64,000 nucleotides of DNA from Vulcanimicrobiota bacterium (GCA_019637395.1 JAHBVR010000015.1:124001-188000), one strand, 5' to 3'. Positions 3,805-57,151 are shown, counted from the first letter of the stretch. The notes: a model not told the origin generated them from the sequence alone. Numbers and translations: made by a program.

Positions 3805-3866
3805 CCGAAAAACAAAATTCAATGTCAACATCTAGTATGCCTCCCTGGGATGTCACCACTACAGGT

Positions 3867-3907
3867 TGTGGAAAAGTGGAAAACACCTGGGGATAGCCTG
3901 TGGAAAA
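3867..3907. promoter_or_regulatory. Cluster of DnaA-box-like sites behind nrdJ
   Basis: TGTGGAAAA occurs twice (3867-3875 and 3899-3907), with a one-mismatch copy AGTGGAAAA at 3875-3883. The reverse complement TTTTCCACA fits the relaxed DnaA-box consensus TTWTNCACA. The cluster lies in the divergent region between nrdJ and the next gene. In Escherichia coli, DnaA boxes control nrdAB, so a regulatory role is plausible. Nothing else here (no dnaA or dnaN, no AT-rich unwinding element) suggests an origin. Confidence 0.4.
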
Positions 3908-3964
3908 ACATTCATAAAACTGACCAAGGAGTCAGGGGGGGAGGAATGGCGAAGGGCGGGACGG

Positions 3965-5242
3965 GTGAATCTTGAGCTCGAGCAGTTGGTCAAGGATTTG
4001 CGCGCCGAGGGCGCGCTGGATTCGGCTGGGAACTTTACTCTGGACGCGGCCAAAGCGCGTGAGAAACTGGCCCAGAGACAGCAGCGCGAAGCCGGTTTGT
4101 GGCTGGTCAAGCTGATCCAGGGAGCCCACATGTGGGAAGCCAACAGCCTGGAATTACGCCAGGAGCGCCTTTGCGCGCGGGCGGTGTTCGGGCTGGGCGG
4201 CAAGGAGCTGGACCTGCGCCCCTGGTTGGCCCGCCTGCACGACATCGAAATGCTGGCCGATCCGTTTTACGGACCGCTGGCCACCGCCTTTCAGGCCGCC
4301 CTGGCCGATGGCTGTTCGGGGATGGATATCACCTTGCCGGAAGGCCCGTTGCTGCTGGATAGCCAGGGCATCAAGGGCCACTGGAAAGGCCTGGAGCCGG
4401 TCTCCTGTCTCCCCCTGCGCTTTCTCTACGCACAAAAGAAGCCGTGGTGGAACCCTCTGCTGCACCTGCGCCCTCCCCAGCGTTCCGCGGAGAACTTCCT
4501 GGCCGCGCAACGCAAGGGTGGACTGGCTCTGCCGCGAGTGGACGTGGACCGCTTTCCCATCAGTCGCCAGGGCGCGCTGGAGAAGGTCGTCGGCGTGGAT
4601 CCGCATCCAGCCCGGATGGAAAGAGTGTTTTTGTCTTCCGACCCGGCTCGCGAGTTGATGTTCTATCCTGAATCCGGGCGGCGCCGGGCCAGTATCGAGG
4701 AGGTCAACGGCCAGGTCACCTGGCAGAATCCGGGCGTAACTTACCAGGGCTTGCGCCAGTGGCGTCACGAGCAGGGCGCTCGCCTGCCGTTGCCCACCTC
4801 TGTGCACGTGCAACCCTGGCTGGACCACCTGCAGCGCGAAGGCCTGCAGACCCCTCCCCCGCCCTCTCAAGAACAGGCTCTGGCCGTGCGTGGCGTGTTG
4901 GTCTGGAATATGGACAGCCACGTGCCGGCCACGATTCTGCCCGTCAAGTATGGGATTCAGCTGGAAGGGGTGCCCTTCACTTCGCTGCCTCCGGGGGTCA
5001 CCATGTGGTTGTCGAGTTCGCGCTGGCGCACCGACATCCACCAGAAGAAGGTGGTGCATGACGAGACCTATCGCGAGTTATGCAACTGGTGCAGCGAGCA
5101 GTTCGACTGCATGGTAAGCGATGCCGCCGACCTGTTACGCGCTTCCGAAACGGTCCGCCAGATGCTGGCTCCGCTGCGGCTGGCCCTGGGCAACTCCCGA
5201 GCGGGCGCGGCCCTGCGCACCCTGCCCTTTCCACGGCGCTGA
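3965..5242 (+). CDS. Orphan protein with degenerate GHKL-like N-terminal domain (paralogue A)
   Basis: 425 residues from GTG 3965. An upstream in-frame TTG at 3866 is rejected because the DnaA-like boxes would then lie inside the gene. I do not recognise a named family. The first ~140 residues match the N-termini of the genes at 9008 and 55652. They share an 'L..L...G.L...G.FTLD...A..KL' opening (here LRAEGALDSAGNFTLDAAKA), then a hydrophobic helix followed by a short strand (NSLELR). Next comes a segment 'LATAFQAALADG' followed by a strand and 'PEG'. In an intact GHKL ATPase these correspond in order to the N-box helix, the first strand and the G-loop region, but the E, N and D of the ATP site are absent. 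The remainder is proline- and tryptophan-rich with no motif. The gene is a single unit, ending against a tandem repeat array. Confidence 0.6.
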   Translation: MNLELEQLVKDLRAEGALDSAGNFTLDAAKAREKLAQRQQREAGLWLVKLIQGAHMWEANSLELRQERLCARAVFGLGGKELDLRPWLARLHDIEMLADPFYGPLATAFQAALADGCSGMDITLPEGPLLLDSQGIKGHWKGLEPVSCLPLRFLYAQKKPWWNPLLHLRPPQRSAENFLAAQRKGGLALPRVDVDRFPISRQGALEKVVGVDPHPARMERVFLSSDPARELMFYPESGRRRASIEEVNGQVTWQNPGVTYQGLRQWRHEQGARLPLPTSVHVQPWLDHLQREGLQTPPPPSQEQALAVRGVLVWNMDSHVPATILPVKYGIQLEGVPFTSLPPGVTMWLSSSRWRTDIHQKKVVHDETYRELCNWCSEQFDCMVSDAADLLRASETVRQMLAPLRLALGNSRAGAALRTLPFPRR

Positions 5243-5592
5243 AAGCGCGGAGAACTGGTGGCGGAGGCCCGATTGGGCAGCCTTTCCGGGGGGCGCGGAG
5301 AGCTGGTGGCGGAACCTCCGCCACGGCGGCTCCGCGGAGGCCGATTGGGCAGCCTTTCCGGGAGCGCGGAGAGCTGATGGCGGAGCCTCCGCCAGCGCGG
5401 CTCCGCGGAGGCCGGATTGGGCAGCCTTTCCGGGGGGCGCGGAGAGCTGGTGGCGGAACCTCCGCCACGGCGGCTCCGCGGAGGCCCGATTGGGCAGCCT
5501 TTCCGGGAGCGTGGAGAGCTGATGGCGGAACCTCCGCCACGGCGGCTCCGCGGAGGCCGATTGGGCAGCCTTTCCGGGGGGCGCGGAGGGCG
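5243..5592. repeat. 72-bp tandem repeat array between convergent genes
   Basis: The whole gap between two convergent stop codons is repeats. The core GATTGGGCAGCCTTTCCGG begins at 5271, 5343, 5415, 5488 and 5559 (periods 72, 72, 73, 71), preceded by a shortened unit at 5243-5270. Copies 1, 3 and 5 continue CCGGGGGGCGCGG, while copies 2 and 4 continue CCGGGAGCG and have GATGG instead of GGTGG, so the array has a ~144-bp two-unit period. Each full unit holds nested inverted repeats (GGCGGAACCTCCGCC and the palindrome CTCCGCGGAG), so transcripts would fold strongly. Long open frames run across it on both strands but translate into a repetitive RG/PP-rich string and are not convincing genes. Confidence 0.9.
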
Positions 5593-6930
5593 CTAAGGCT
5601 GGGGCTCGGCGGGAGGGGGCGGGTCCGGCTGGGGAAGCGGATCTTCTTGAATTTTGCGCTTTTTGCTCCAGGGGTACTTGCGCTTGGGGCGGGTGACCAC
5701 GCCCGGGATCTCACCATCCTTGATCTGCTGCTTGTTGCTCTTCTTTTCTTGCTTGACGGCTTTGGCTTGGCCGGGAGCGTCGACGAAGCAGCAGCAGTCC
5801 CAGTTGGACGAGCATTTGCAGGCGTCGCAGCAGTCAGGATCGCAGCAGTCGCAAATCTCGCAGCACTCCAGCCCTTCGCAGGCCCCGCACTCGCAAGAGT
5901 TGCAGACCGAACAGGCGTCGCAGGCGGTCAGGTCGCAGGCGTTGCAGTCACACAGATGGCATCCGTCGCAGCAGCCTCCACAATCGCAGCCCTCACAGCC
6001 TCCACAGTCGCAGCCGTCACAGGCCACGGCCGCCTGGGGTTGCAGGGAGGCCGCCGCCAGGCCGGCACCGATCCAGCAGGCCCGGCCGGAAAAGCGCGCC
6101 TCGTCAGAACGGAACTCACGCAGAGTCAGGCTGCGCAGCCGGTTCACCTGCTCTTCCAGCAAGGGGCGGCGCTGGCCTAAAGGCAGATGGTTGAGGGCCC
6201 GGCGCGCGTGGTGCAGGGCGTGCAGCAACTGCACTCCCAGTTCCTCGTCGGCCAGCGGAAATTTCACCAGAGCGTTAAAGGCTCCGTGCCGGCGGTCTTT
6301 GGCCTGGTCGCTCCAGGCATCATAGAGATAGATCCACAGGCCCAGGGCCCGTCCCAGTTCTTCTAGATGAGGGCGCAGCCAGGTTTGTTCCGTATAATCC
6401 GCCAGAAAACCAAAAAGCGCGGCCAACATGGTCTGGGTGGGCACGGCCAGGTCGGGCAGCGAGCCGGCCTCTTGCTCGACAGCCCGCTGCCAGGCGCCCA
6501 ACCCCTCGATGGCGTCGCGCGGGAACCGCGCTTCATCCAGAATGGGCGCGGCCTTGCGCCAGCTCTTTTGCAGCGGCAGAAAAGCCCAGCGCACCCAGGG
6601 GCGATCCCCATCATGGAGATCGTCTTCGACTTTGGCGCCGGCCAGGGCCAGAGTCAGAGCCGATACCAGCTTACGCGTGCGCAACGGCATCTGCAGCACC
6701 GGCACCTGGCGGAAGAAGACGGCCGTGCAGGCCTTGCGTTCAATATGCTCAGATCTCTCTAAGGCGGCCAGCGTAATCAGAAAAAAAGTGGTGTCATAGT
6801 TGGTGAGCAAGGAGGCAAATTTGCCGCCGAAGGCGTCGAGGCTATGGCACAGTCCGCAGAAATGACTCTGGTAGAGTCGCTTCTGATCCGCGTCAAAGCG
6901 GTCTTTGGGCGGACGCAGGGAGCCGAACAC
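5593..6930 (-). CDS. DUF5685-family protein with a 30-cysteine C-terminal domain
   Basis: 445 residues from GTG 6930. An in-frame ATG exists 20 codons upstream (6990), but the family characteristically begins 'MFGxLRP', matched by GTG-FGSLRP. The first ~290 residues carry the DUF5685 pattern: CGLCHSLDAFGGKFASLLTN (about 25-45), 'YDTTFFL', and a helical block ending GLWIYLYDAWSDQAKDR before HGAFNAL. After a short hydrophobic stretch comes a segment (DNA 5780-6035) with 30 cysteines in ~80 residues, mostly CxxC and CC pairs with Asp, Glu and Gly. A basic then proline-rich tail follows. The biochemical role of DUF5685 is unknown to me; the Cys domain looks like a metal-binding or disulfide-rich module. 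The gene stands alone, bounded by the repeat array and a hairpin. Confidence 0.75.
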   Translation of the reverse strand: MFGSLRPPKDRFDADQKRLYQSHFCGLCHSLDAFGGKFASLLTNYDTTFFLITLAALERSEHIERKACTAVFFRQVPVLQMPLRTRKLVSALTLALAGAKVEDDLHDGDRPWVRWAFLPLQKSWRKAAPILDEARFPRDAIEGLGAWQRAVEQEAGSLPDLAVPTQTMLAALFGFLADYTEQTWLRPHLEELGRALGLWIYLYDAWSDQAKDRRHGAFNALVKFPLADEELGVQLLHALHHARRALNHLPLGQRRPLLEEQVNRLRSLTLREFRSDEARFSGRACWIGAGLAAASLQPQAAVACDGCDCGGCEGCDCGGCCDGCHLCDCNACDLTACDACSVCNSCECGACEGLECCEICDCCDPDCCDACKCSSNWDCCCFVDAPGQAKAVKQEKKSNKQQIKDGEIPGVVTRPKRKYPWSKKRKIQEDPLPQPDPPPPAEPQP

Positions 6931-7002
6931 GGGGGCTGCCTTCGCCGAGCCCGGGGAGGAGTCCCTGGCCCGGTTAGGAAAACCGCCCAAGCAGGGGGGT
7001 CC

Positions 7003-7025: not shown

Positions 7026-7058
7026 TGAACGCTGGAATTATCTATATTGGAGCTTTTT

Positions 7059-7496
7059 ATGGCAAATCCGCGTATCTCGATGAAGACTTCAAAAGGCGAA
7101 ATGATCATCGAATTGTTTCAAGACGCCGCTCCCAACACCGTGAAGAACTTTCTCGATCTGACCAACAAGGGTTATTACAACGGTCTGACCTTCCACCGCG
7201 TCATCCCCAACTTTATGATCCAGGGGGGCTGCCCTCACGGCACCGGTACCGGTGGTCCGGGCTACAAGATCAACTGCGAAATCAACCCAAACAAGCACCT
7301 GCGCGGCTCTCTCTCGATGGCTCACGCCGGTCCCAACACGGGCGGCAGCCAATTCTTCATCTGTCACTCGCCCCAGTCCCACCTCGACGGCGTCCACACC
7401 GTCTTCGGCCAAGTGATCGAAGGCATCGAAGTGGTCGACAAGGTGCAAAAAGACGACAAGATGGAAGAAGTTCGCCAGCTCAGCGTAGCCGGCTAG
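7059..7496 (+). CDS. Cyclophilin-type peptidyl-prolyl cis-trans isomerase
   Basis: 145 residues, a minimal single-domain cyclophilin that catalyses proline isomerisation during protein folding. The start is ATG 7059, with GGAG 6 nt upstream; the in-frame TTG at 7047 is worse placed. Family signatures are clear: [13 protein letters not shown] (catalytic Arg and the substrate loop), then GSQFFICHS and [12 protein letters not shown]. There is no signal peptide, so it is cytoplasmic. The usual tryptophan of eukaryotic cyclophilins is replaced in the [10 protein letters not shown] segment, as in most bacterial ones. It is followed immediately by a terminator. Confidence 0.95.
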
Positions 7497-7506
7497 CTCG
7501 ATTGAA

Positions 7507-7535
7507 AAGGGGCCGGAAGACCGGCCCCTTTTTTG
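7507..7535 (+). terminator. Intrinsic terminator after the cyclophilin gene
   Basis: A 10-bp stem AAGGGGCCGG / CCGGCCCCTT (7507-7516 with 7521-7530) around AAGA, followed by a T-run. It ends only 3 nt before the ATG of the GHKL ATPase gene. Confidence 0.9.
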
Positions 7536-7538
7536 TTT

Positions 7539-9011
7539 ATGGGAAAAAAGAAAGCGAAGGTCAAAGCCGCCGGAAACGCGTTGGACATGCTGGTCCGCCA
7601 GTTCGCCCAGCCGCTGGCGTGTTTGCGCGAGCTGGTGCAGAATTCCATCGACGCCGGCACCAATCAGGTGGAAGTCACGCTGGCCCAGGAGCGCGAGGGC
7701 ATCCGCCTGTCGGTGAGCGACACCGGCGAGGGCATGACCGAAAACATCATCGAGACTCAGTTGACTCGCCTGTTCGCTTCTTCCAAAGAAGGCGATCTGA
7801 CCAAAGTCGGCAAGTTCGGCATCGGCTTCGTATCCGTCTTTGCCCTGGTGCCCCTGGCGGTGGTGGTGGACACCGGCCGCCAGGGTGAGGCCTGGCGCGT
7901 GCTCTTCAAACCTGACCGCTCTTTTGAGCTGCTCAAGTTACCTCATGGAGTGGAGGGCACCACCGTCCATCTCTACCTGGATGGTGAGCGCTTCGACCTC
8001 CCCGATTTGCGCGCCAAGGTCCACCAAACCCTGGCCTTCTGGTGCCGCCACTGCCGGGTGGAGATTTTTGTCGATGGCCAGTCCATCCGTTCGCCTTTTG
8101 AATTGACTGACTCGGTGCAGGCCCACTATGAAGAAGCGGGCACCCGCCTGGTGCTGGCTCTGAGCCGGCAGGCCGAATGTTTCTACGGATATTACAATCA
8201 GGGTCTGACGTTGCTGGAAGGCATGCAGTCCCCCTTGCCTCATCTGACCTTCAAAATCGATTCGCGTTACTTCGAGCACACGCTGACCCGCGACAATATC
8301 ATTCAAAACGAGGACTACGCCAAAGGGATGGCGTTGCTTGAGCGCGTGCTGAAAACCCACTATCCGCCGAAACTCTATGAGCATTTAAGAAACGGTGGGG
8401 AAGATTGGGAATTGCTGAGCATTCTCGGGCTAAAGGGGGTCAGTTGCGACCAGGAACCCCTCTTTCCCGACCACCAGGGCCAACGGTATTCCCTGGCCCA
8501 GTTACGCAAAGCTCAGGTTTGCCATCAGGACGAGCCCGATGAGTTGAGCCGACTGATCCACGAACCGGCTCAGAGTCGACTGGTGCTGCGGCTCAGCCAG
8601 GCGGCCGCCGCCTGGCTGAGCCAGCGCGACCTTCCCGTGCCGGCCACCAGGCAACGCTGGCGCTTTTCCCGGCCGGACGACTCGCTCGACCCCTTGCTGG
8701 TTTCGTGCCAACAATTGGGAAAAGCGCTGGGCGTGCGGCGCCTGAAGGCGGTGAGCTGGATCAGCCCGGCTCCCGGTTCTTTCCTGTGGCCGGCCTCGAA
8801 GGTGGGACTGGTTGGACATTCCGACCACGGGGATTTACTGCTCCTGGACGTGAACCACCCGACCGCGGCCAACCTGAAACGCCTGCAGGATTGGAATCGG
8901 CCGCTGGCGGCGCAAATTTTGCTGCAGCACCTCATCTTGCAGCTACCGGAAAAAGACCGTGAGGCACGCGCCGAGAAGCTGGCCATCACCATGCTGAGGC
9001 ACTTGAAGTGA
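7539..9011 (+). CDS. Hsp90/MutL-like GHKL ATPase
   Basis: 490 residues from ATG 7539. The ATP-binding Bergerat fold is intact: N-box LRELVQNSIDAG (E31, N35), G1 box DTGEGM (D61), the glycine lid KFGIGFVSVF (93-101), and GTTVHLYL (about 140-147) for the last strand. Residues ~230-265 (YYNQGLTLLEG, then HTLTRDNIIQNEDY) resemble the middle domain of Hsp90-like proteins, where a conserved Arg contacts ATP. The C-terminal 200 residues are unassigned, and there is no MutL or topoisomerase domain. No Shine-Dalgarno is visible because the upstream DNA is the terminator, so initiation may be leaderless or unusual. The gene overlaps the next by 4 nt (GTGA), so the ATPase and the 1322-residue protein are coupled. 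It probably acts as a chaperone-like or remodelling ATPase. Confidence 0.8.
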   Translation: MGKKKAKVKAAGNALDMLVRQFAQPLACLRELVQNSIDAGTNQVEVTLAQEREGIRLSVSDTGEGMTENIIETQLTRLFASSKEGDLTKVGKFGIGFVSVFALVPLAVVVDTGRQGEAWRVLFKPDRSFELLKLPHGVEGTTVHLYLDGERFDLPDLRAKVHQTLAFWCRHCRVEIFVDGQSIRSPFELTDSVQAHYEEAGTRLVLALSRQAECFYGYYNQGLTLLEGMQSPLPHLTFKIDSRYFEHTLTRDNIIQNEDYAKGMALLERVLKTHYPPKLYEHLRNGGEDWELLSILGLKGVSCDQEPLFPDHQGQRYSLAQLRKAQVCHQDEPDELSRLIHEPAQSRLVLRLSQAAAAWLSQRDLPVPATRQRWRFSRPDDSLDPLLVSCQQLGKALGVRRLKAVSWISPAPGSFLWPASKVGLVGHSDHGDLLLLDVNHPTAANLKRLQDWNRPLAAQILLQHLILQLPEKDREARAEKLAITMLRHLK

Positions 9012-12000
9012 GCTTTCTCGAGCGGCTGCGCGGCCAGGGCCAACTGCATCGCGAGGGCGAGTTCACCCTGGACGTGGAGCAGGCCAGGACCAAGCTGTCG
9101 CGCTTTCAGTTCCGAGAGGACCAGGATTTTCTGTATCACCTGGTGGGTGGTCTCTTTCGTTTAGGCGCGGAAGAGATCGAAGTAGATTGGCAGGCCAACC
9201 GGCTGAGCGTACGGATGCTGGCTCTTCCTCTAGAACCGGATTTCCTGCCGGCGCTGCCGGGAGCTTTGCTGGAGGAAAACTCACCGCAGCGGCGTCTGGC
9301 CGCGGCCGCCCAATCCTTGCTGGCACACAAGCTGATCCGCTTCGATTGGATCGGCTCAGGCAAAAATCAACTATATGACTATCTGAGCGGCAAACAACAG
9401 AACTGGGAGCGGGTTTGCTTGCGGGAGATTCAACTGGAAGGCCTTTCCTCCGGCCTGGTCGAGCGAGCTCTCGCCGAGCTGAGAAAAAAAGCCGCTTATT
9501 GCCGCAAGCCGCTGCTCGTGAGAGGAAATGCCCTGCCGATCACGTTCCCCACCGGCCAACTGGGCGGACTGCCGGCCACCTGCCAATGCCGCCCCGGCCA
9601 GCTCAGCCAGTTGGAGCTGGTAGTGGACGAAATGGTTTGTCCGCCCAAGACCGTGCCCGCTCCGTTTGCCTGGCACGGTGTTTGCTATGGCGACTTCCAT
9701 CTCGATGTCTCGCTAACGAACGCGGTCGAGGACGAACTCTATGCGCGCGTGGCCAACGCCATCGAGAGCAGCTTTACCGATTGCATCGAAAGGGTCCGCG
9801 ACCGCGAGGTCATTGGTAAGCTTCTGAGCGGCCCGGCTTACCCCTGGTTGCAACCGCTACTGCCGCGCCTGCGCAAGCGGGTGCTATTTACCGACCAGCG
9901 CGCTGAAGACTGGTCGCTCGACGAATTAACTCCACCGGTCTATTTCAGCACCGAGCAGGCACCGATCGATCTACCCGAGAGGATTTTGCTGGAGACCTCG
10001 CCGGTAATGCTCGCCTGCCTGCAAGCGCAGTTTGGCGCCGAGTGCCGACGCGCGGACGAGGTGGTGTTGCGCCAGTTACGCCGCCAGCGCAACCAGTTCC
10101 AGTGGAGCCGGCGAGCCGAGACCGGACTGAACCTGCCGGCGCGCAACTGGTTGGTCCAGAAAGTCTTCGAGCAGAGCGCCGGGCAGTGGTCGCTGGGCAT
10201 TCCCGACGACTGGGCCGAACCCGGAGGCAGCCTCACCCTGTTGCACCAGGGCCGTCTTCTCTGCCACCGCCAACTCGCTCACCCCGAAGTGGCTTTTACT
10301 TTAATTTGCGAGGTTGGCGAAGCTCAAATCAATGAGTTGTGGGACGACATCACGGAAGAGGCCTGGGAAGAATTGGAACCGCGCTGGCTGCACAGCCTGG
10401 AGGAGCTGATTCGCGAAATGGCCGGAGAAGGTGTGCCCAGAGGGGCCCTGCGGACCTATCTGGTAAAGCATTTGAGCCACGCCCGGCGCCCACAGGACAG
10501 CTATTTCGCCAAGACCATGCTCTTCCAGGATTGGCACGGTCGGTTTTATTCGCTATTTCAATTGCTCTCGCTGGGGCCTGGTCAAAGCTTGTGCCTGGTG
10601 ACGGAAGAGCAAGCCCCGCTGGAGGATTTTATGCCGGTGGGCGTTTTCATCCGAGCCGGTCATTGGGAGACACGGCTTTTCAAGAGCATCAGCTCGCTCA
10701 AGCTTTTGGAACTTGACTATCTGTTGAGAGACCTGAACCTGTCCCGCCGCCCGTCTTTCCTGGAACGCCGGAACCTGTCTCCAACCTTTGGCCAGGCCCG
10801 CGTGACTTTCTGCGTGCGCGGAGTCGAATTGGAAACGGTCAAGGTCGATTCAATACTCGGCTTTGAAGCCTGGGTGCGGAACGACGAGCTGACCTTCCAG
10901 ATTCGCCTGGAAAACGAGAGGCTGGGAGCCAGTCGCTTTCGCCTGGCCATGAACGCCAAAGCCAAACGCTTCCTGGATCAACTGGTGGCGGAGGCGCGCG
11001 AACTCTCCCCTCCCCTGCCGCTGCAGGCCGAGTGGCTGGCCTGGGCTCGGGAAGCCACGCTGCGCCAGGTGGCTGCGCCCGAACTGGCCTGCTGGCCCAC
11101 CCTGTGGAATGGAATGGTGAGCTTACAAGATTTGCGCCGGGCCGAGCGGGTCAACTGGACCAGCGGGCCTGGTTCTGCGCAATTTCCCCGAGAGTTATTG
11201 CTGATCAACCTGTCCGATGGCCAGCGCGCCTACCTGCAACAGCAGTGCCAAAACGAGTGGGTCGGCCAGGATCTTTGGTTCGCTGAGCAGGAACGGTTGC
11301 GGCTCTTTCTCGAGAAACCGATGTGGAGTCCGAATTTTCAGGCGTTGGGCACCTACCCTGGAGTCTGGCTGGTGGCTGACAAAGACCCCGGCAAGGTCAT
11401 TCACCTGCTTCGCGGACGCTGGTTGCGCGAGGAAGAGGGATTGATACCGCCCGGACTGCGCGCTACCGTGGAGTGCGCGGGTTTCGAGGATGCCCCCGAT
11501 CTCTCGGAGTTGCTGGAACGAATCCGAAGGCATCTGGCCGATTGGTTGGCAGTGGCTCGTCCCCGCAACCGCGGAATGCTCTACCACTGGCGAGAGTGGG
11601 CGCCGCTCAGCCAGGAGATCAACGATTGCCTGCGCCGCCAGCCCTGGTTTCAGACTAACCAGGGCCTTCTCAGTTGGGAAGATATTCTGCAGAAAGGGGA
11701 GATCTACCGGGTGGTGGCAATCTATCCGGATCTCCCTCGAGATCGGCTCTTCTTAGCCGAAAGCGGGACTCCGCCGGGGTTGCTGGATTCGCTGCTGGCC
11801 CAGCACGGCAAAGGCCATTCCGTGCCCCAGACCGCCAGGCTACTGCAAGAAGAAAAACGGCTGGCCGAACGACGCCAGCGTCTGGCGGATCAGCTCCGCC
11901 GGCTCAACCACCTGAAGTTCAAAATCAAGGTCGAGTGGGGCGATGTGGGCCTGTCGGGTAAGTCCACCAAGGATTGCTGGCTGCTCTTGCCGGAACGGGC

Positions 12001-12976
12001 CGTACTGCTCCACAATGTCCCGTCGGGCCTGGTGGGCGCCCTGGAGTGCGACCAGGAATATCGACTGCGCCGCATCGGGTCTCAAGAGTACGCGGAATTG
12101 AATCAGGGAGTGCGGCGCCGCTTTTACCAGGCGCTGCAGCCGCTGCTGCTGCAACGAATTCAAGCCGGCCGTCTGAATGCAGCGGAACTCGCCACCTTTT
12201 GCGAAGTTCTCATGCTGGGTATGGAAGATATGGCTCAGGTGCGCTGGATCCCTTGTGCCGACGGCAGCCTGACCAGCCTGGCCCAGCTCAAACTCGATAG
12301 CGAAGAGCGTGATGAACTCGGCTATTGGCCCAAGACCTACGCCTTCAGTTCGGGGGGAGCCCGCATCACGCCGATCTTGTCCTCCCCGTTGATGCTGGAG
12401 GTGGTTGGACGTTACTGTGGGCGCCGGCCCCAGCCCCTGCCCAAACCGTTACTGCATCAGGACGTGAAACTCAAAATGCCCAGTTTCCGCGGTTTCGGCC
12501 AGGTGCTGCGCAGCCTGGGCCATGCCGCCGACAGGCTACGCGAACAAGTGGTGAATGTGGAAACGCGCCGGGCCACCCTCTTTGAGACACTCTTCAAGGA
12601 GACGCCGCCGGGCGATGGCAAAGCCTTGTTGACGGCGCTCCGGCGCCAGGCGGCTCAGTTGACTCAAGGCGCGGCTCGCCGAGAGCTTTTGAAAGTTCTG
12701 GACAAAGCCAGAATCGGTGACTGCCGCGATTTGTGGGATTTTACACCGGAACTGGTGTTGTCGAGCTCCTGGTTGCGAGCGCACCTGGGTAGCCAGGAGC
12801 CGCCGGTGGAGGTGACTTTGAGCTTGCTGCTCTGCCTGGTGAGCGCCATCAACGCCCGCAGCCAACCGTTCACCGACAAAATGGAAGAGAAATTCCTGGG
12901 AAGCCTGACCGAAGAGCTAGTAGGGTCGTGGGCCACCAGCGGGAACGCGGGATCGAGTGAAGTCACGAGGCCTTAG
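9008..12976 (+). CDS. Very large orphan protein with degenerate GHKL-like N-terminus (paralogue B)
   Basis: 1322 residues from GTG 9008, translationally coupled to the GHKL ATPase (GTGA). I recognise no named family. Residues 1-110 match the genes at 3965 and 55652: 'GQLHREGEFTLDVEQAR.KL', then a helix LVGGLFRLGA and a strand EEIEVDW. This lines up with the ATPase's 'ELVQNSIDAG..QVEV' but has lost E, N and D. 'LAAAAQSLLAHKLIRFDWIG' then falls where the lid of the active enzyme lies. The rest is Leu-, Arg- and Trp-rich, apparently soluble and all-domain, with no transmembrane helix, signal peptide or known catalytic motif. A charged helical stretch (about 940-975, 'LLQEEKRLAERRQRLADQL') may be a coiled coil. 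It overlaps the following exporter gene by 20 nt. I infer a partner or client platform for the ATPase. Confidence 0.6.
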   Translation: MSFLERLRGQGQLHREGEFTLDVEQARTKLSRFQFREDQDFLYHLVGGLFRLGAEEIEVDWQANRLSVRMLALPLEPDFLPALPGALLEENSPQRRLAAAAQSLLAHKLIRFDWIGSGKNQLYDYLSGKQQNWERVCLREIQLEGLSSGLVERALAELRKKAAYCRKPLLVRGNALPITFPTGQLGGLPATCQCRPGQLSQLELVVDEMVCPPKTVPAPFAWHGVCYGDFHLDVSLTNAVEDELYARVANAIESSFTDCIERVRDREVIGKLLSGPAYPWLQPLLPRLRKRVLFTDQRAEDWSLDELTPPVYFSTEQAPIDLPERILLETSPVMLACLQAQFGAECRRADEVVLRQLRRQRNQFQWSRRAETGLNLPARNWLVQKVFEQSAGQWSLGIPDDWAEPGGSLTLLHQGRLLCHRQLAHPEVAFTLICEVGEAQINELWDDITEEAWEELEPRWLHSLEELIREMAGEGVPRGALRTYLVKHLSHARRPQDSYFAKTMLFQDWHGRFYSLFQLLSLGPGQSLCLVTEEQAPLEDFMPVGVFIRAGHWETRLFKSISSLKLLELDYLLRDLNLSRRPSFLERRNLSPTFGQARVTFCVRGVELETVKVDSILGFEAWVRNDELTFQIRLENERLGASRFRLAMNAKAKRFLDQLVAEARELSPPLPLQAEWLAWAREATLRQVAAPELACWPTLWNGMVSLQDLRRAERVNWTSGPGSAQFPRELLLINLSDGQRAYLQQQCQNEWVGQDLWFAEQERLRLFLEKPMWSPNFQALGTYPGVWLVADKDPGKVIHLLRGRWLREEEGLIPPGLRATVECAGFEDAPDLSELLERIRRHLADWLAVARPRNRGMLYHWREWAPLSQEINDCLRRQPWFQTNQGLLSWEDILQKGEIYRVVAIYPDLPRDRLFLAESGTPPGLLDSLLAQHGKGHSVPQTARLLQEEKRLAERRQRLADQLRRLNHLKFKIKVEWGDVGLSGKSTKDCWLLLPERAVLLHNVPSGLVGALECDQEYRLRRIGSQEYAELNQGVRRRFYQALQPLLLQRIQAGRLNAAELATFCEVLMLGMEDMAQVRWIPCADGSLTSLAQLKLDSEERDELGYWPKTYAFSSGGARITPILSSPLMLEVVGRYCGRRPQPLPKPLLHQDVKLKMPSFRGFGQVLRSLGHAADRLREQVVNVETRRATLFETLFKETPPGDGKALLTALRRQAAQLTQGAARRELLKVLDKARIGDCRDLWDFTPELVLSSSWLRAHLGSQEPPVEVTLSLLLCLVSAINARSQPFTDKMEEKFLGSLTEELVGSWATSGNAGSSEVTRP

Positions 12977-14654
12977 AGCCCTTTTCGGTTATCTTTGGAA
13001 TTATCGCTGGCAAACGGGCATCGGCGTGCTCGGTTTGATTCTGGCTGACGCCGCTCAGTTGGGCATTCCCTTTTTAAGTCAACGAGTCATTGACGATCTG
13101 CGGGAAGGACCTGATCGGTTCACCATCGCTCTGATCGTGTGCCTGGCCCTGCTGGCCTATGCCGCCCGCTGTTTATGGCGCTACTGCTTGTTCGGAGCGG
13201 CCCGTAAATGTGACATCGAGATTCGCCGCCAGATCTACCACCGGGCCATTCACCTCGATTTGACCTATCATTCCCAGAGTTCGATCGGCCATATGATGGC
13301 ACTGGCCACCAGCGATGTGGCGGCCGTGCGCATGGCGCTGGCCTTCGCGCTGATGTCTTCGTTTGACGCGGTCATCTACAGTTTGCTGAGCATCACCGCC
13401 CTGTTGCGCATCGACGCCGGCCTGGCCATGGTAACGCTTTTGCCCTTTCCCTTGCTCGGTTTCATGATGCGCTATCTGATGAAATGGAACTATTCGACCT
13501 GGGATCGGGTGCAGCAAAGCATCGACGAGTTGACCGAAAAGTCGCGCGAGAGTATTGCCGGTATGCGCGTGTTGCGCACGCTGGTCCAGGCAGAGGGGGA
13601 CGCGGCCGAGTTTCGCCGCATCACCGCCGAGCAGCACCGGCGCTTTATGACTTTTGTGAAAGTGGATGGGGTCTACTCCCCCACCATTTTGTTTTTGTCC
13701 GGCATCAGTTCGGCTCTGCTGCTGGCGGTGGGCGGCCAGCACGTGGTGGACGGGCGCCTGACGGTGGGCGAATTCGCGGCTTTTGCTTCCTTTCTGGGCC
13801 AGTTGAGCTGGCCCATGGTGGCAGCCGGCTGGACGCTTTCCCTGGTGCAGCGGGCCACCGCCTCCATGGATCGAATTTTGACCTTGCTGGATGCTCTGCC
13901 CGAGCCGCAGCAGCCGGTGCTGGACGGTCCTTTTGAGGGAGCCCTGGAAATTCGCGGGCTGACCTTTACGTATCCGGGTGGGGTCAAACCAGCTTTGTCA
14001 GACCTGACAGCTCGGGTGGCGGCAGGGGGCAGCCTGGGCCTGGTGGGAGAGGTGGGCTCGGGCAAGTCGACGCTGACGCGTCTGCTGCAGCGTTTGTTCG
14101 AACCACCGGCCGGCACGATTTTTCTCGACGGCCGGGACGTTGTCGAGTTGAATTTGACGCAATTGCGCCGGCAGTTCGCCTGGGTGGAGCAGGAGTCGTT
14201 TTTGTTTTCCGCCACCATCGAAGAGAATTTGCGCCTGAGCGGCTTTGCGGGAGACGTCCAGGAAGCCGCCCGCCAGGCCGAGTTGCATCAGGAGGTCATG
14301 AGTTTTCCGGAGGGTTATCAGACCTTGTTGGGAGAGAGGGGCGTGACGCTCTCAGGCGGACAGCGCCAGCGCTTGTGTTTGGCCCGGGCCCTCTTAAAGC
14401 CGGCTCCGGTGTTGTTGTTAGATGACACTTTGTCGGCGGTGGACGCCGACACCGAACAGCGTATTCTGGCTTCCCTGGCCGCCTTGCGCGGCCGGCAGAC
14501 GCTGGTCATCATATCCCATCGGGTCAGTTCCGTGCGCGACTGCGACGAGATTCTGGTCTTGGAAGAGGGCAGCGTGGTGCAGCGCGGGCGCCACCAGCAG
14601 TTGCTGGCCGAGGATGGGTTATACAAACGCCTGTATGAGTTACAGACCTCATGA
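12957..14654 (+). CDS. ABC exporter half-transporter, non-canonical subunit
   Basis: 565 residues: a six-helix exporter membrane domain (residues ~15-310), then a nucleotide-binding domain with Walker A GEVGSGKST (about 364), Q-loop, signature LSGGQRQR (about 465), Walker B LLLDDTLSAVD (about 487) and switch His in ISHRVSS. The catalytic Glu after Walker B is Asp (LDD). This marks the inactive-site half of heterodimeric exporters such as BmrC/BmrD or LmrC/LmrD. The GTG start at 12957 overlaps the 1322-residue gene by 20 nt, and the stop overlaps the next ABC gene (ATGA). Substrate is unknown; lipids, drugs or peptides are possible. Confidence 0.9.
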   Translation: MKSRGLRALFGYLWNYRWQTGIGVLGLILADAAQLGIPFLSQRVIDDLREGPDRFTIALIVCLALLAYAARCLWRYCLFGAARKCDIEIRRQIYHRAIHLDLTYHSQSSIGHMMALATSDVAAVRMALAFALMSSFDAVIYSLLSITALLRIDAGLAMVTLLPFPLLGFMMRYLMKWNYSTWDRVQQSIDELTEKSRESIAGMRVLRTLVQAEGDAAEFRRITAEQHRRFMTFVKVDGVYSPTILFLSGISSALLLAVGGQHVVDGRLTVGEFAAFASFLGQLSWPMVAAGWTLSLVQRATASMDRILTLLDALPEPQQPVLDGPFEGALEIRGLTFTYPGGVKPALSDLTARVAAGGSLGLVGEVGSGKSTLTRLLQRLFEPPAGTIFLDGRDVVELNLTQLRRQFAWVEQESFLFSATIEENLRLSGFAGDVQEAARQAELHQEVMSFPEGYQTLLGERGVTLSGGQRQRLCLARALLKPAPVLLLDDTLSAVDADTEQRILASLAALRGRQTLVIISHRVSSVRDCDEILVLEEGSVVQRGRHQQLLAEDGLYKRLYELQTS

Positions 14655-16423
14655 TAGATGATCATCTCCAGGTCAAGCTCAGCCAGCGCCAGGCGCTCTT
14701 CTACTTTGGCCGAGTCTTGCGCGAAGCACGCGAGCAACGTTGGATGATCGCGCTCTGTTTGTTCGGTTCCTTGCTGGAGGCCGGCATCGAGGTGCGTCTG
14801 CCGCAGCTGATGGCTTCAGGCATCGATCAGTTCATGATCTCCAAGGCTTCCGGCCCGGCCCGCATGGACGGCTTGATGCAACTCGGCCTGGTTTACCTGG
14901 GACTGGTGTTGCTGGCGGCCGTGCTCGGCTTTCTCCTGACCCTGGGCTTCAATCGAGTCGGCCAAACGGTGGTGGAGCGCCTGCGCAATCATCTCTTCGA
15001 GCATCTGCACCGCCTGCCCATCGGTTATTTCGACGGCAATCCGGTGGGGCGACTGGTCACCCGCGTGGCCAACGACACGGGCACCTTAAGCGAGTTTTTC
15101 ACCGGCGTGGTGGCCAATCTGCTTTGCGATCTGCTCAAACTGCTGGTGCTGCTGGGGGCGCTGTTCTGGGCCTCGCCGCGTCTGACGTTGAGCGTGCTGG
15201 TGCTGGCTCCCCCGGCTCTGCTGGCCTCGCTGCTCTTTCAGCGAGCCAACACACGGGTGAACCGGGACATTCGCCGCCTGCTGGCCCAGTTGAACGCCTT
15301 CATTCAGGAGAATCTGCAGGGTCTGGCCACCTTGAAGTCGTTCACCGCCGAAGCCAAAATGCAGGGCGATTTCGACCGCCAGAACCGCGAATACCTGGGC
15401 GTGGAAATGCGTCTGGTCTATCTCTACATGCTGTTCCGGCCCCTGTTTGGCACGATTTCCATGCTGTCGTTGGCCATCGTTCTGTGGGTGGGCGGCTGGC
15501 AGGTGACCAGCGGGCAGATTTCGCTGGGAACCCTGGTGTTGTTTGTCTTTTACCTGAAAATGTTGTTCGCTCCCCTGGACGACCTGGCCGAACGCTTCAA
15601 CGTCTTGCAGTCAGCGGCGGTGGCGGCGGAACGCCTGTTTTTGATTCTGGACGCCGAGCCGGAGTCGCCGGGCGGCCAACCGGTTGTTTCCAGTCGGGGG
15701 CGCATCGAATTCCGCGACGTGCACTTTGCCTATGACCCCAAAAAGCCGGTGCTGCAGGGCGTGTCCTTTGTCTTGGAACCGGGCCAGAAGCTGGCCCTGG
15801 TGGGAGCCACCGGTTCCGGCAAAACCACCGTGACGTCTCTGTTGCAGCGTCTGTATCCGCTGGTGGAAGGCGAAATTCTGTTGGACGGCGTGGACATACG
15901 CCAACTGCAGGTAGACTCGCTGCGCCGCCAGTTCGGCATCATTCAGCAAGAATTGTTTCTGTTCAAAGCCTCCTTGCGCCATAACGTAACCCTCTACCGC
16001 TCGGTCTCGGAACCGGCCCTGGCCGAGGCGTTGCGCATTTCCCGGGCTGCGCGGGTGGTGGAAGCGCACCCGGAAGGGCTGGAGCGCCGCTTGGGGGAGC
16101 GCGGCAATCAATTGTCGCAAGGTGAACGCCAGCTGGTCTCTTTCGCACGCGCCCTGGTGGATGATCCGCCGGTGCTCATCATGGATGAGGCCACGGCCAG
16201 TATCGACAGCCTGACCGAGCAGGCCATTCAAGAGGCCCTGCATGAGGTGCTCCAGGGTCGCACGGCCATCCTGGTGGCCCACCGTTTGTCGACCATCCAG
16301 CATTGCGATCAAATCTTACTGCTGGATCACGGGAAAGTGGTGGAAAGAGGCACGCACCGGGAACTGATGGAGCAAGATGGTGCTTATGCCAACCTGGTGC
16401 GACATCAACTGGAGAAAGCGTGA
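14651..16423 (+). CDS. ABC exporter half-transporter, catalytic subunit
   Basis: 590 residues with the same architecture as its upstream neighbour: an exporter membrane domain (to about 330) and a nucleotide-binding domain. Walker A is GATGSGKTT (about 385), the signature is LSQGERQ (about 488), and Walker B is VLIMDEATASID with the catalytic Glu intact. The His-switch is in AHRLSTI. The signature LSQGE instead of LSGGQ is typical of the canonical-Walker-B partner in heterodimeric exporters, complementing the degenerate neighbour. It starts by ATGA overlap and ends by GTGA overlap with the metallophosphoesterase, so the three are surely cotranscribed. Confidence 0.92.
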   Translation: MIDDHLQVKLSQRQALFYFGRVLREAREQRWMIALCLFGSLLEAGIEVRLPQLMASGIDQFMISKASGPARMDGLMQLGLVYLGLVLLAAVLGFLLTLGFNRVGQTVVERLRNHLFEHLHRLPIGYFDGNPVGRLVTRVANDTGTLSEFFTGVVANLLCDLLKLLVLLGALFWASPRLTLSVLVLAPPALLASLLFQRANTRVNRDIRRLLAQLNAFIQENLQGLATLKSFTAEAKMQGDFDRQNREYLGVEMRLVYLYMLFRPLFGTISMLSLAIVLWVGGWQVTSGQISLGTLVLFVFYLKMLFAPLDDLAERFNVLQSAAVAAERLFLILDAEPESPGGQPVVSSRGRIEFRDVHFAYDPKKPVLQGVSFVLEPGQKLALVGATGSGKTTVTSLLQRLYPLVEGEILLDGVDIRQLQVDSLRRQFGIIQQELFLFKASLRHNVTLYRSVSEPALAEALRISRAARVVEAHPEGLERRLGERGNQLSQGERQLVSFARALVDDPPVLIMDEATASIDSLTEQAIQEALHEVLQGRTAILVAHRLSTIQHCDQILLLDHGKVVERGTHRELMEQDGAYANLVRHQLEKA

Positions 16424-55260: not shown

Positions 55261-55662
55261 GTGATTTTCGAATTCTTCCTCGGTTGCGGACTGACGCTCA
55301 CAGCCGCTCACCTCTACCGCTTCTCGCGCAATCGAAACATGCTCCGGCCAAATGGCCTGACCAAGGCCGCCTGTCTGCTGATTGTGCTACCTGAAGCAAC
55401 TTCCTCGCAAGTGCTGGCAGAGCTTGATCCGGCCGTAGCCCTACAATTATCCAAGGTCATGAGCCGGGTCGCCCAGTTACCCCCCAAGATCCTATCCGCG
55501 CTGACCCGGTGGACCTTCAGGGAGGTTTTCCTGGAAACGGCTACTCAGCCAGAAGATCAGAGCGAGACCTGGCTTTCTCTAGCTCGCTCGGATCCGACTC
55601 TGGCAGCCAATGTGTGTCTCCATCACTACCGTGCCCAAGATTCCGTGAAGCATGGAGAATGA
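55261..55662 (+). CDS. Small protein with a FliG-N-like domain
   Basis: 133 residues from GTG 55261; open DNA upstream lies in the gap to speE and is not convincing. After a hydrophobic start (VIFEFFLGCGLTLTAAHLY) there is KAACLLIVLPEATSSQVLAE then LDPAVALQLSKVMSRVAQLP, which follows the pattern of the FliG N-terminal domain (KAAILLLSLG..xAaevL..L). No flagellar gene is near. It overlaps the next gene by 11 nt, so they are coupled. It may be a membrane adaptor for that protein. Confidence 0.5.
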   Translation: MIFEFFLGCGLTLTAAHLYRFSRNRNMLRPNGLTKAACLLIVLPEATSSQVLAELDPAVALQLSKVMSRVAQLPPKILSALTRWTFREVFLETATQPEDQSETWLSLARSDPTLAANVCLHHYRAQDSVKHGE

Positions 55663-57151
55663 TGGCGGCCCGGAGTTGGCTCGGTATTTGGAAGCCTCTC
55701 AATCGGAAGGCCAGTTCAATTCTCAAGGCCGCTTTACTCTCGCCCTCACGGAGTTTGCCAGCAAACTTAAGTCCCACGGGTTCTATCACCAAGCGAACTG
55801 GAGTCTATTTGCCGTTCGGGCGTTCGTTCGTCTGGGCTGCCGAAGTCTGCACCTGACTCAGTACCGGCGGGAGTTGTGGCTGGTAGCCTGCGGAGTCGGG
55901 GAGGTTCCCCCATTGGCCGACATCGAGACACAAACCTCAGCCCAGATTCTGGCCGGCGCCACCCCCGAAGGCCTGCTGGCCAGAGCGGTAGCTGGACTGG
56001 CCCAGGCAGATGCGACCCAGGTTTCGCTGGTGTGCTGGCAAAACGGCACCACCAGCAGAGTCCGGAATCTGATCGGCCCGGGCCGGTGCCCCAAGAATTT
56101 CCCTGTCCTGCAGCGAGAAGGATGGTGCCTGGGAATCTATGTGTGGTTCTCCACCGGTTGTCCCTGGGAACTGGCCGCGCACCTGAGTTACCCTGTTCAG
56201 TTCTGCCCGATTCCCGTGATGGAGCACCACCTTCGTCCCTGGTCCTCAGCTAGCGATACACGCGGGAAGTACTGGCTGGGGCAAGCAACCACCGATTCTC
56301 CCTACCCGCCCGACAGAATGCTCAACTTGGAACTTCCGTTGCTGTGCGATATCTACCTGGGAAAAGGCATATCCGGCCCCTTATTGCTAAAGCCTGGCGG
56401 AGGCCATTCCCATTCTCACCTGGCCGGTTGGTGTAACCAAAAATGTTTCGAATGGCTGAAGCCGGCCGGCCCTATCAGTTCTATTTCTACTTTGGCCCGA
56501 TATTATTGGGGCCCCCAGTCCATTCATCAGGAATTTAAATGGTCGGCCCAAAGAAAACTCCTGAATTCCGCCTGGGAGGAAAAGCCTGCGCGCACAGCCT
56601 GGCTGACCACCGCCCGAGGCAGCGACATCCTGTTCATTTCAGCGGACACTCATGCGGATCGGTTGCTCCCTATCGCCGACGGAATTGCCTTGGAGGCGCT
56701 CTTTGATGAACTGAAAATTCCTGGCCTGACCCTGATCACCGGCGCGGATTCCCTCAATATGGACGTCTCGGGCTCCAGGATCGTCGAGGATGTACGTTTC
56801 AAGCTGTGGCTCCAAGAAAAACGGCTGGTCATCCAAGAAGCCCTGGAAAAGGCTCTAGAAATACCCCCAACCCCGCCAAACTACCATTGGCCTCCCCTCG
56901 GAAAAACCATGCTGGCCACCGGCTTATCCTGCCTCCTGGCCGGCATTCTCGCGAACGGATTTCAGCCCTCCGACTTCTTATTTCTCACCCACGGAGGAAT
57001 ATTCGGAGGCACCGCCGTCGCGGCCGGCCTCCGTTCCATCGCCAACTACCTGCCCGGCCGCGGGCGCCAGGAGCAACAAAGAAACATCACTCGAGTTTTG
57101 CAGGAGCGGCTACAGGCAACTCAGCAAGCGATTGCTTCGGCAGACCATTAG
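55652..57151 (+). CDS. Orphan protein with degenerate GHKL-like N-terminus and C-terminal membrane hairpin (paralogue C)
   Basis: 499 residues. Residues 5-110 match the proteins at 3965 and 9008: GQFNSQGRFTLALTEFASKL, a helix AVRAFVRLGCRSL, a strand LHLTQ, then LARAVAGLAQ. The equivalents of the GHKL Glu, Asn and Asp are absent. The middle has a GGGHSHSHLAG loop. Residues ~415-460 contain two hydrophobic segments (LATGLSCLLAGILANGF and GGIFGGTAVAAGLRSIANYL) suggesting membrane attachment, unlike A and B. No other family is recognised. It is coupled to the FliG-N-like gene and ends sharing TTAG with the convergent channel gene. Confidence 0.6.
   Translation: MENDGGPELARYLEASQSEGQFNSQGRFTLALTEFASKLKSHGFYHQANWSLFAVRAFVRLGCRSLHLTQYRRELWLVACGVGEVPPLADIETQTSAQILAGATPEGLLARAVAGLAQADATQVSLVCWQNGTTSRVRNLIGPGRCPKNFPVLQREGWCLGIYVWFSTGCPWELAAHLSYPVQFCPIPVMEHHLRPWSSASDTRGKYWLGQATTDSPYPPDRMLNLELPLLCDIYLGKGISGPLLLKPGGGHSHSHLAGWCNQKCFEWLKPAGPISSISTLARYYWGPQSIHQEFKWSAQRKLLNSAWEEKPARTAWLTTARGSDILFISADTHADRLLPIADGIALEALFDELKIPGLTLITGADSLNMDVSGSRIVEDVRFKLWLQEKRLVIQEALEKALEIPPTPPNYHWPPLGKTMLATGLSCLLAGILANGFQPSDFLFLTHGGIFGGTAVAAGLRSIANYLPGRGRQEQQRNITRVLQERLQATQQAIASADH

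Follow-up and report, generated by a model that had tools for sequence, protein, structure and literature searches.

Hsp90, MutL and other GHKL proteins function as dimers in which the N domains close upon ATP, and Hsp90 is known to pair two copies of the same live protomer. How the work is divided between the two Hsp90 ATP sites is an open question that has been probed with engineered heterodimers of one live and one dead protomer (PMC5550277). That paper cites studies in which a live Hsp90 site stays active beside a dead one, and TRAP1 itself is described as requiring both hydrolyses to finish its cycle (PMC5550277). Sacsin and the bacterial sacsin-type GHKL proteins, including TmtA of Tiamat, are giant proteins in which an Hsp90-like N domain is combined with regions that are middle-like or repeated, and sacsin repeats the whole unit of N and middle domain (N+M) in one chain (PMC3629688). 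Unequal or degenerate ATP sites also occur in known GHKL heteromers, namely MutL-alpha (MLH1-PMS2; PMC12733681) and topoisomerase VI-like heteromers with MTOPVIB (PMC11077084). In the open-access literature, the coverage of which is incomplete, we found no description of a dead bacterial Hsp90 paralogue or of a pair such as the one reported here.

The pair lies in a 64,000-nucleotide stretch of DNA (the window) from a Vulcanimicrobiota bacterium (GCA_019637395.1 JAHBVR010000015.1:124001-188000), whose genome measures 7.66 Mb and has Candidatus Eremiobacterota MAGs as its nearest named relatives. Its two overlapping genes are the following.

7539..9011, + strand: active-type Hsp90-like ATPase (P0001), 490 aa; N domain 1-125; Hsp90-middle-like domain 126-328, in which R251 is invariant; C-terminal part 329-490
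9008..12976, + strand: predicted dead (pseudo-)Hsp90 partner (P0002), 1322 aa from GTG; GTGA overlap with the ATPase at 9008-9011
9008..9367, + strand: predicted dead Bergerat/GHKL N domain, partner residues 1-120; without catalytic Glu, Mg-binding Asn, DxGxG and lid glycines

The ATPase frame starts with ATG, and its N-box (RELVQNSIDAG), G1 (DTGEG) and lid (GKFGIGF) are all complete. The initial annotation had called these motifs intact, and this was borne out by profile matches to Pfam HATPase_c_3 (5.8e-13), HATPase_c (1.5e-9) and the NCBIfam sacsin-type N-domain (1.8e-14), as well as by the absence of variation at E31, N35, D61, G63, G65 and R251 in 15 relatives. Besides these GHKL/Bergerat hallmarks (N-box Glu/Asn, DxGxG, GxxGxG lid), the ATPase possesses an Hsp90-type middle domain, in which R251 falls, in the alignment, on the catalytic-loop arginine of the HtpG encoded by the same genome (LNLSRELLQ / SRELLQ). 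In TRAP1, this middle-domain arginine is the sole residue touching the gamma-phosphate (PMC5550277). The same domain is homologous to the first repeat of the partner (U1, below), whose predicted fold is Hsp90-like. Judged from its sequence, the ATPase is Hsp90-like across its N and middle domains, and the pair shares with Hsp90, HtpG and TRAP1 the N+M fold and domain order. By contrast, the Pfam HSP90 model PF00183, which matched the HtpG of the same genome (L062:5002-6954) at 1.6e-132, gave no match to the ATPase at E<1. Given that this match is missing, the ATPase has no recognisable canonical C-terminal dimerisation domain and is therefore named 'Hsp90-like' rather than a canonical Hsp90; the pair as a whole differs from the described Hsp90s in the same two respects. 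Scanning the whole collection with the single ATPase sequence returned nothing beyond the two nearest MAGs, a plasmid search gave no match at 1e-8, and viral contigs yielded two weak GHKL matches and nothing else.

The partner had initially been described as carrying a dead GHKL-like N-terminus of 110 residues, on the basis of a helix-strand correspondence seen by eye. Profiles independently gave the same register, and the dead module was found to extend over about 300 residues. An AlphaFold2 model of residues 1-300 (pLDDT 91.5, pTM 0.87) showed a Bergerat/Hsp90-like N-terminal fold, and its top Foldseek matches in the PDB were all Hsp90 N+M structures (TRAP1 at E 5.5e-7, Grp94 and Hsc82) with probability 1.00 and a TM of about 0.5, so that the region is modelled as an Hsp90 N+M fold. 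When the dead module was compared with the ATPases by hhalign, 286 colinear columns were aligned at 12% identity with a probability of 98.4 and an E-value of 5.6e-15, which refers to one single comparison. A dead-only profile, built from 41 partner-type N-termini and zero ATPases, recovered the ATPases (E 2.6e-5 to 6.4e-13) and the HtpG middle domain (E 2.6e-5). Because E-values from searches of the retrieved loci relate to a small, enriched sequence set, reversed-sequence controls were run, the best of which reached E 0.11 for this profile. Relatives of the partner were found by profiles and folds alone; a Pfam search and a single-sequence search against the PDB gave no match. These profile and model comparisons show, within the limits of prediction, that the partner's N+M module and the ATPase share common descent. 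The residues that define an active site have been lost on the partner's side: the Mg-binding Asn (N35) is present in 0 of 60 dead-module homologues, E31, N35 and D61 are jointly kept in none of the 60, the lid glycine G94 is replaced by Ala in 49 of them, and the position of ATPase R251 is Leu in the window partner. With its nucleotide-binding and catalytic residues gone from the sequence, the partner is predicted not to bind ATP. Purifying selection acts on the dead domain (dN/dS 0.07-0.31, with dS partly near saturation).

The ranking of these matches bears on whether the pair could be a DNA-acting GHKL machine of the MutL, MORC or topoisomerase VI kind. The unequal or degenerate GHKL heteromers cited above offer precedents for such an identity, and MORC structures appeared as weak fold matches (E 0.02-0.1), but Hsp90s rank first in both fold and sequence searches, and the domain search revealed neither a nuclease nor a DNA-binding domain. 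Moreover, MutL-alpha and the topoisomerase VI-like heteromers consist of DNA-repair or DNA-breaking subunits and domains without middle-domain repeats. We consider a DNA-acting machine very improbable.

Such repeats make up most of the partner, which beyond its dead N domain is composed of five units and a C-terminal domain.

9368..9943, + strand: repeat U1, residues 121-312, Hsp90-middle-like; catalytic-loop Arg lost
9944..10579, + strand: repeat U2, residues 313-524; motif, hhalign and repeat profile
10580..11149, + strand: repeat U3, residues 525-714; motif, hhalign and repeat profile
11150..11704, + strand: repeat U4, residues 715-899; motif, hhalign and repeat profile
11705..12304, + strand: repeat U5, residues 900-1099; motif, hhalign and repeat profile
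12305..12973, + strand: partner C-terminal domain, residues 1100-1322, mostly helical; conservation similar to that of the dead N domain

The motif LF-x-D-x-x-G-x-x-x-SL-x-x-L, found at partner residues 293, 505, 695, 880 and 1080, marks five units of about 195 residues and is recognisable at matching positions in 12 long partners aligned with the window partner. Segments cut at the motif positions cross-matched one another in hhalign (E 2.9e-4 to 1.5e-20), and U1-U4 matched the ATPase middle domain at E 4e-9 to 5e-5, the match of U5 being weak (0.003); the best reversed control reached 0.0058. Exactly five copies were detected by the repeat profile in the long partners listed, which represent families f1-f4 and include a fused protein, and a 1547-residue protein outside the training set (L067) displayed the same five-copy pattern with four copies significant alone. 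Shorter partners possess 1-3 copies. The AlphaFold2 model of residues 123-1322 is locally fair (pLDDT 76) and globally uncertain (pTM 0.36), and its best PDB matches were again Hsp90s. No relative of the C-terminal domain was found.

The repeats also help to decide whether the locus might encode an anti-phage defence system of a bacterial sacsin-like or Tiamat-like kind. The ATPase N domain does score against the sacsin N-domain model, as noted above, and against PADLOC TmtA profiles (best E 5.1e-11). However, these matches are limited to the ATP-binding domain (about 70-100 residues in the case of TmtA), the partner matches no PADLOC model, and a search of 17 loci surrounding GHKL proteins of the sacsin type did not find the partner repeats (best E 0.028). 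The genus-level synteny of the locus includes housekeeping genes (an NrdJ-type reductase and a cyclophilin), which is not what a variable island would show. We regard a defence role as quite improbable. Membership of Tiamat was rejected on the lack of a full-length TmtA match, and that of the sacsin family on the single N domain and on the repeat profile, which misses the bacterial sacsin-type proteins. In architecture, sacsin repeats its entire N+M unit, whereas the partner combines one dead N domain with five middle-like repeats, and the live N+M is encoded here by a separate gene. The same genome also encodes a 2425-residue sacsin-type GHKL protein (L175:2103-9377, - strand; G000:C18) with relatives in G001-G005.

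Adjacency of the two genes in other genomes had been anticipated, and their homologues were indeed adjacent, mostly translationally coupled, or fused. A dead-Hsp90 gene is directly downstream and co-directional, or fused, in 24 of 36 ATPase loci (13 genomes); 11 loci have no adjoining dead partner and one has a convergent dead gene. The GTGA overlap read at the outset was verified at 9008-9011. Of the 12 unfused pairs with a long partner, 11 have a 4-nt NTGA overlap (ATGA or GTGA), and one further pair has a 4-nt NTGA overlap as well. In one genome (G006, L057), ATPase and partner form one 1919-residue frame. The distance matrices of ATPases and dead domains are correlated (r 0.88); when partners were exchanged inside genomes, 2 of the 82,944 arrangements did equally well, one of these being the true pairing. 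Because the swaps are among paralogues within genomes, this co-evolution signal goes beyond species history alone. Fusion, coupling and co-evolution, all read from sequence, support a fixed partnership, and since the genes stay adjacent or fuse in relatives, the two proteins probably constitute one lopsided chaperone. These results also dispose of the idea that the N-terminal resemblance is due to chance and the genes are mere neighbours. Identity of only 12% and a partner without a Pfam match would fit that idea, but the independent results from profiles, folds, fusion, synteny and co-evolution rule it out, leaving it next to no probability.

A different relationship would be that the partner is a regulator or giant co-chaperone: the ATPase would form a homodimer, and the dead protein would bind it transiently to gate its cycle or localise it. 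The existence of unpaired ATPases indicates that the ATPase may work alone, and dead modules fused elsewhere in the genome to a kinase or to TPR arrays resemble adaptors. By contrast, 4-nt translational coupling and a natural fusion suggest fixed stoichiometry, and we regard the regulator as unlikely. One unpaired ATPase (L060:6305-7918; paralogue at G000:C36) sits beside MreB/MreC/PBP rod-shape genes in at least 4 genomes; in this cluster, which includes a second MreB and a PBP, a 637-residue frame (L060:2851-4761, - strand) matches both MreB and MreC and appears to be an MreB-MreC fusion. Conversely, a long dead partner (L051:7328-11593, + strand) has no ATPase in the ~14 kb retrieved, and its genome has another complete pair.

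We favour the reading, which we think rather likely, that the two proteins assemble into an Hsp90-like machine, heteromeric and asymmetric, made of a live ATPase subunit and a dead, client-binding subunit. The 490-residue subunit, with its Bergerat N domain, its Hsp90-type middle domain and an arginine placed to sense the gamma-phosphate, would bind and hydrolyse ATP. The 1322-residue subunit would descend from the same N+M module after loss of the ATP-binding residues, and its dead N domain would most likely dock on its active counterpart to complete an Hsp90-type clamp, while the five tandem middle-like modules would form an extended arm gripping the client protein. ATP binding and hydrolysis by the single live subunit would then close and open the clamp around the client. 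The pseudo-enzyme with an active paralogue, proposed initially as a chaperone-like machine, is as an architecture well supported by fold and adjacency; we infer that the complex forms through N-N heterodimerisation, that the repeats bind client and that the function is one of chaperoning or remodelling. Several observations weigh against such a machine, namely the 11 of 36 unpaired ATPase loci, the L051 partner with no nearby ATPase, the lack of a PF00183 match in the ATPase, the low global confidence for partner residues 123-1322, and a hairpin that splits a cyclophilin gene from the ATPase; in its favour, the cyclophilin is found upstream in two families and provides a folding context. In contrast to classical Hsp90, with its two live protomers, the second subunit here, which bears five middle-like repeats, is a dead paralogue. 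The closest likeness is to engineered TRAP1 heterodimers (PMC5550277), in which one live protomer is likewise joined to a catalytically impaired one; those were made by mutation, whereas the asymmetry here appears natural and ancient. If true, a natural and conserved live/dead pair would be a ready-made test of how ATP sites share their work, and the five-repeat arm would be a new use of the Hsp90 middle domain.

The genes flanking the pair are as follows.

7047..7496, + strand: peptidyl-prolyl isomerase of cyclophilin type, next to the ATPase on its 5' side; likewise in G001-G004, and 5' of the fused gene in G006
7504..7533, + strand: terminator-like hairpin with a T-run, separating the ATPase from the cyclophilin; found at the corresponding site in G002, G003, G004 and G006 but not in G001
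12957..16423 (12957-14654 and 14651-16423), + strand: two ABC exporter subunits, downstream; tied to the pair within the genus only

Eukaryotic cyclophilins are known Hsp90 co-chaperones, and in five genomes from the genus a cyclophilin gene directly precedes the ATPase, as it does the fused gene in another family. Because a strong terminator-like hairpin intervenes, cotranscription of cyclophilin and ATPase is doubtful or attenuated. The T-run of this hairpin comes so close to the ATPase start codon that neither a promoter nor a usual ribosome-binding site would fit, and attenuation or a leaderless start is possible from this arrangement. The downstream exporter and a phosphoesterase had been assigned to the pair as well; their order holds within the genus (G001, G003, G004 in part) and is absent in other families, and they were rejected as core parts beyond the genus. 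A DUF5685 protein (5593-6990, - strand), whose C-terminal region is very rich in cysteine, is syntenic with the pair in the genus.

The large protein had been taken for an orphan, which it is not: 65 match pieces in the same genome, after removal of HtpG and merging of broken frames, correspond to about 44 dead-Hsp90 loci, set against three active ATPases of the family and one HtpG. Two further members lie in the window.

3866..5242, + strand: second dead-Hsp90 N+M protein, 458 aa; syntenic in the genus
55652..57151, + strand: third dead-Hsp90 protein, 499 aa; no adjoining ATPase

The dead module was found in 14 genomes, all of this phylum, among 388 searched with at most 5 candidates scored per genome; since about 240 of these genomes lie outside the phylum and so few candidates were scored in each, occurrence beyond it may exist. 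Dozens of dead Hsp90 genes in one bacterial genome would show pseudo-chaperones expanding in the manner of pseudokinases. Tentatively, and on the doubtful side, the family may form a divided Hsp90 network in which three live ATPases pair with about 44 dead paralogues acting as adaptors, each bringing a client-binding or effector part of its own (five middle repeats, TPR arrays, kinase), so that interchangeable dead protomers would let one ATPase serve many clients. Within the same genome, a dead-Hsp90 module is fused to a Ser/Thr-type protein kinase domain (L062:12675-14897, - strand) and others to TPR arrays (L195:522-3707 and L063:2373-3944, both - strand). Just 3' of the gene for the 458-aa protein, 4.5 tandem copies of a 72-bp unit occupy positions 5261-5588.
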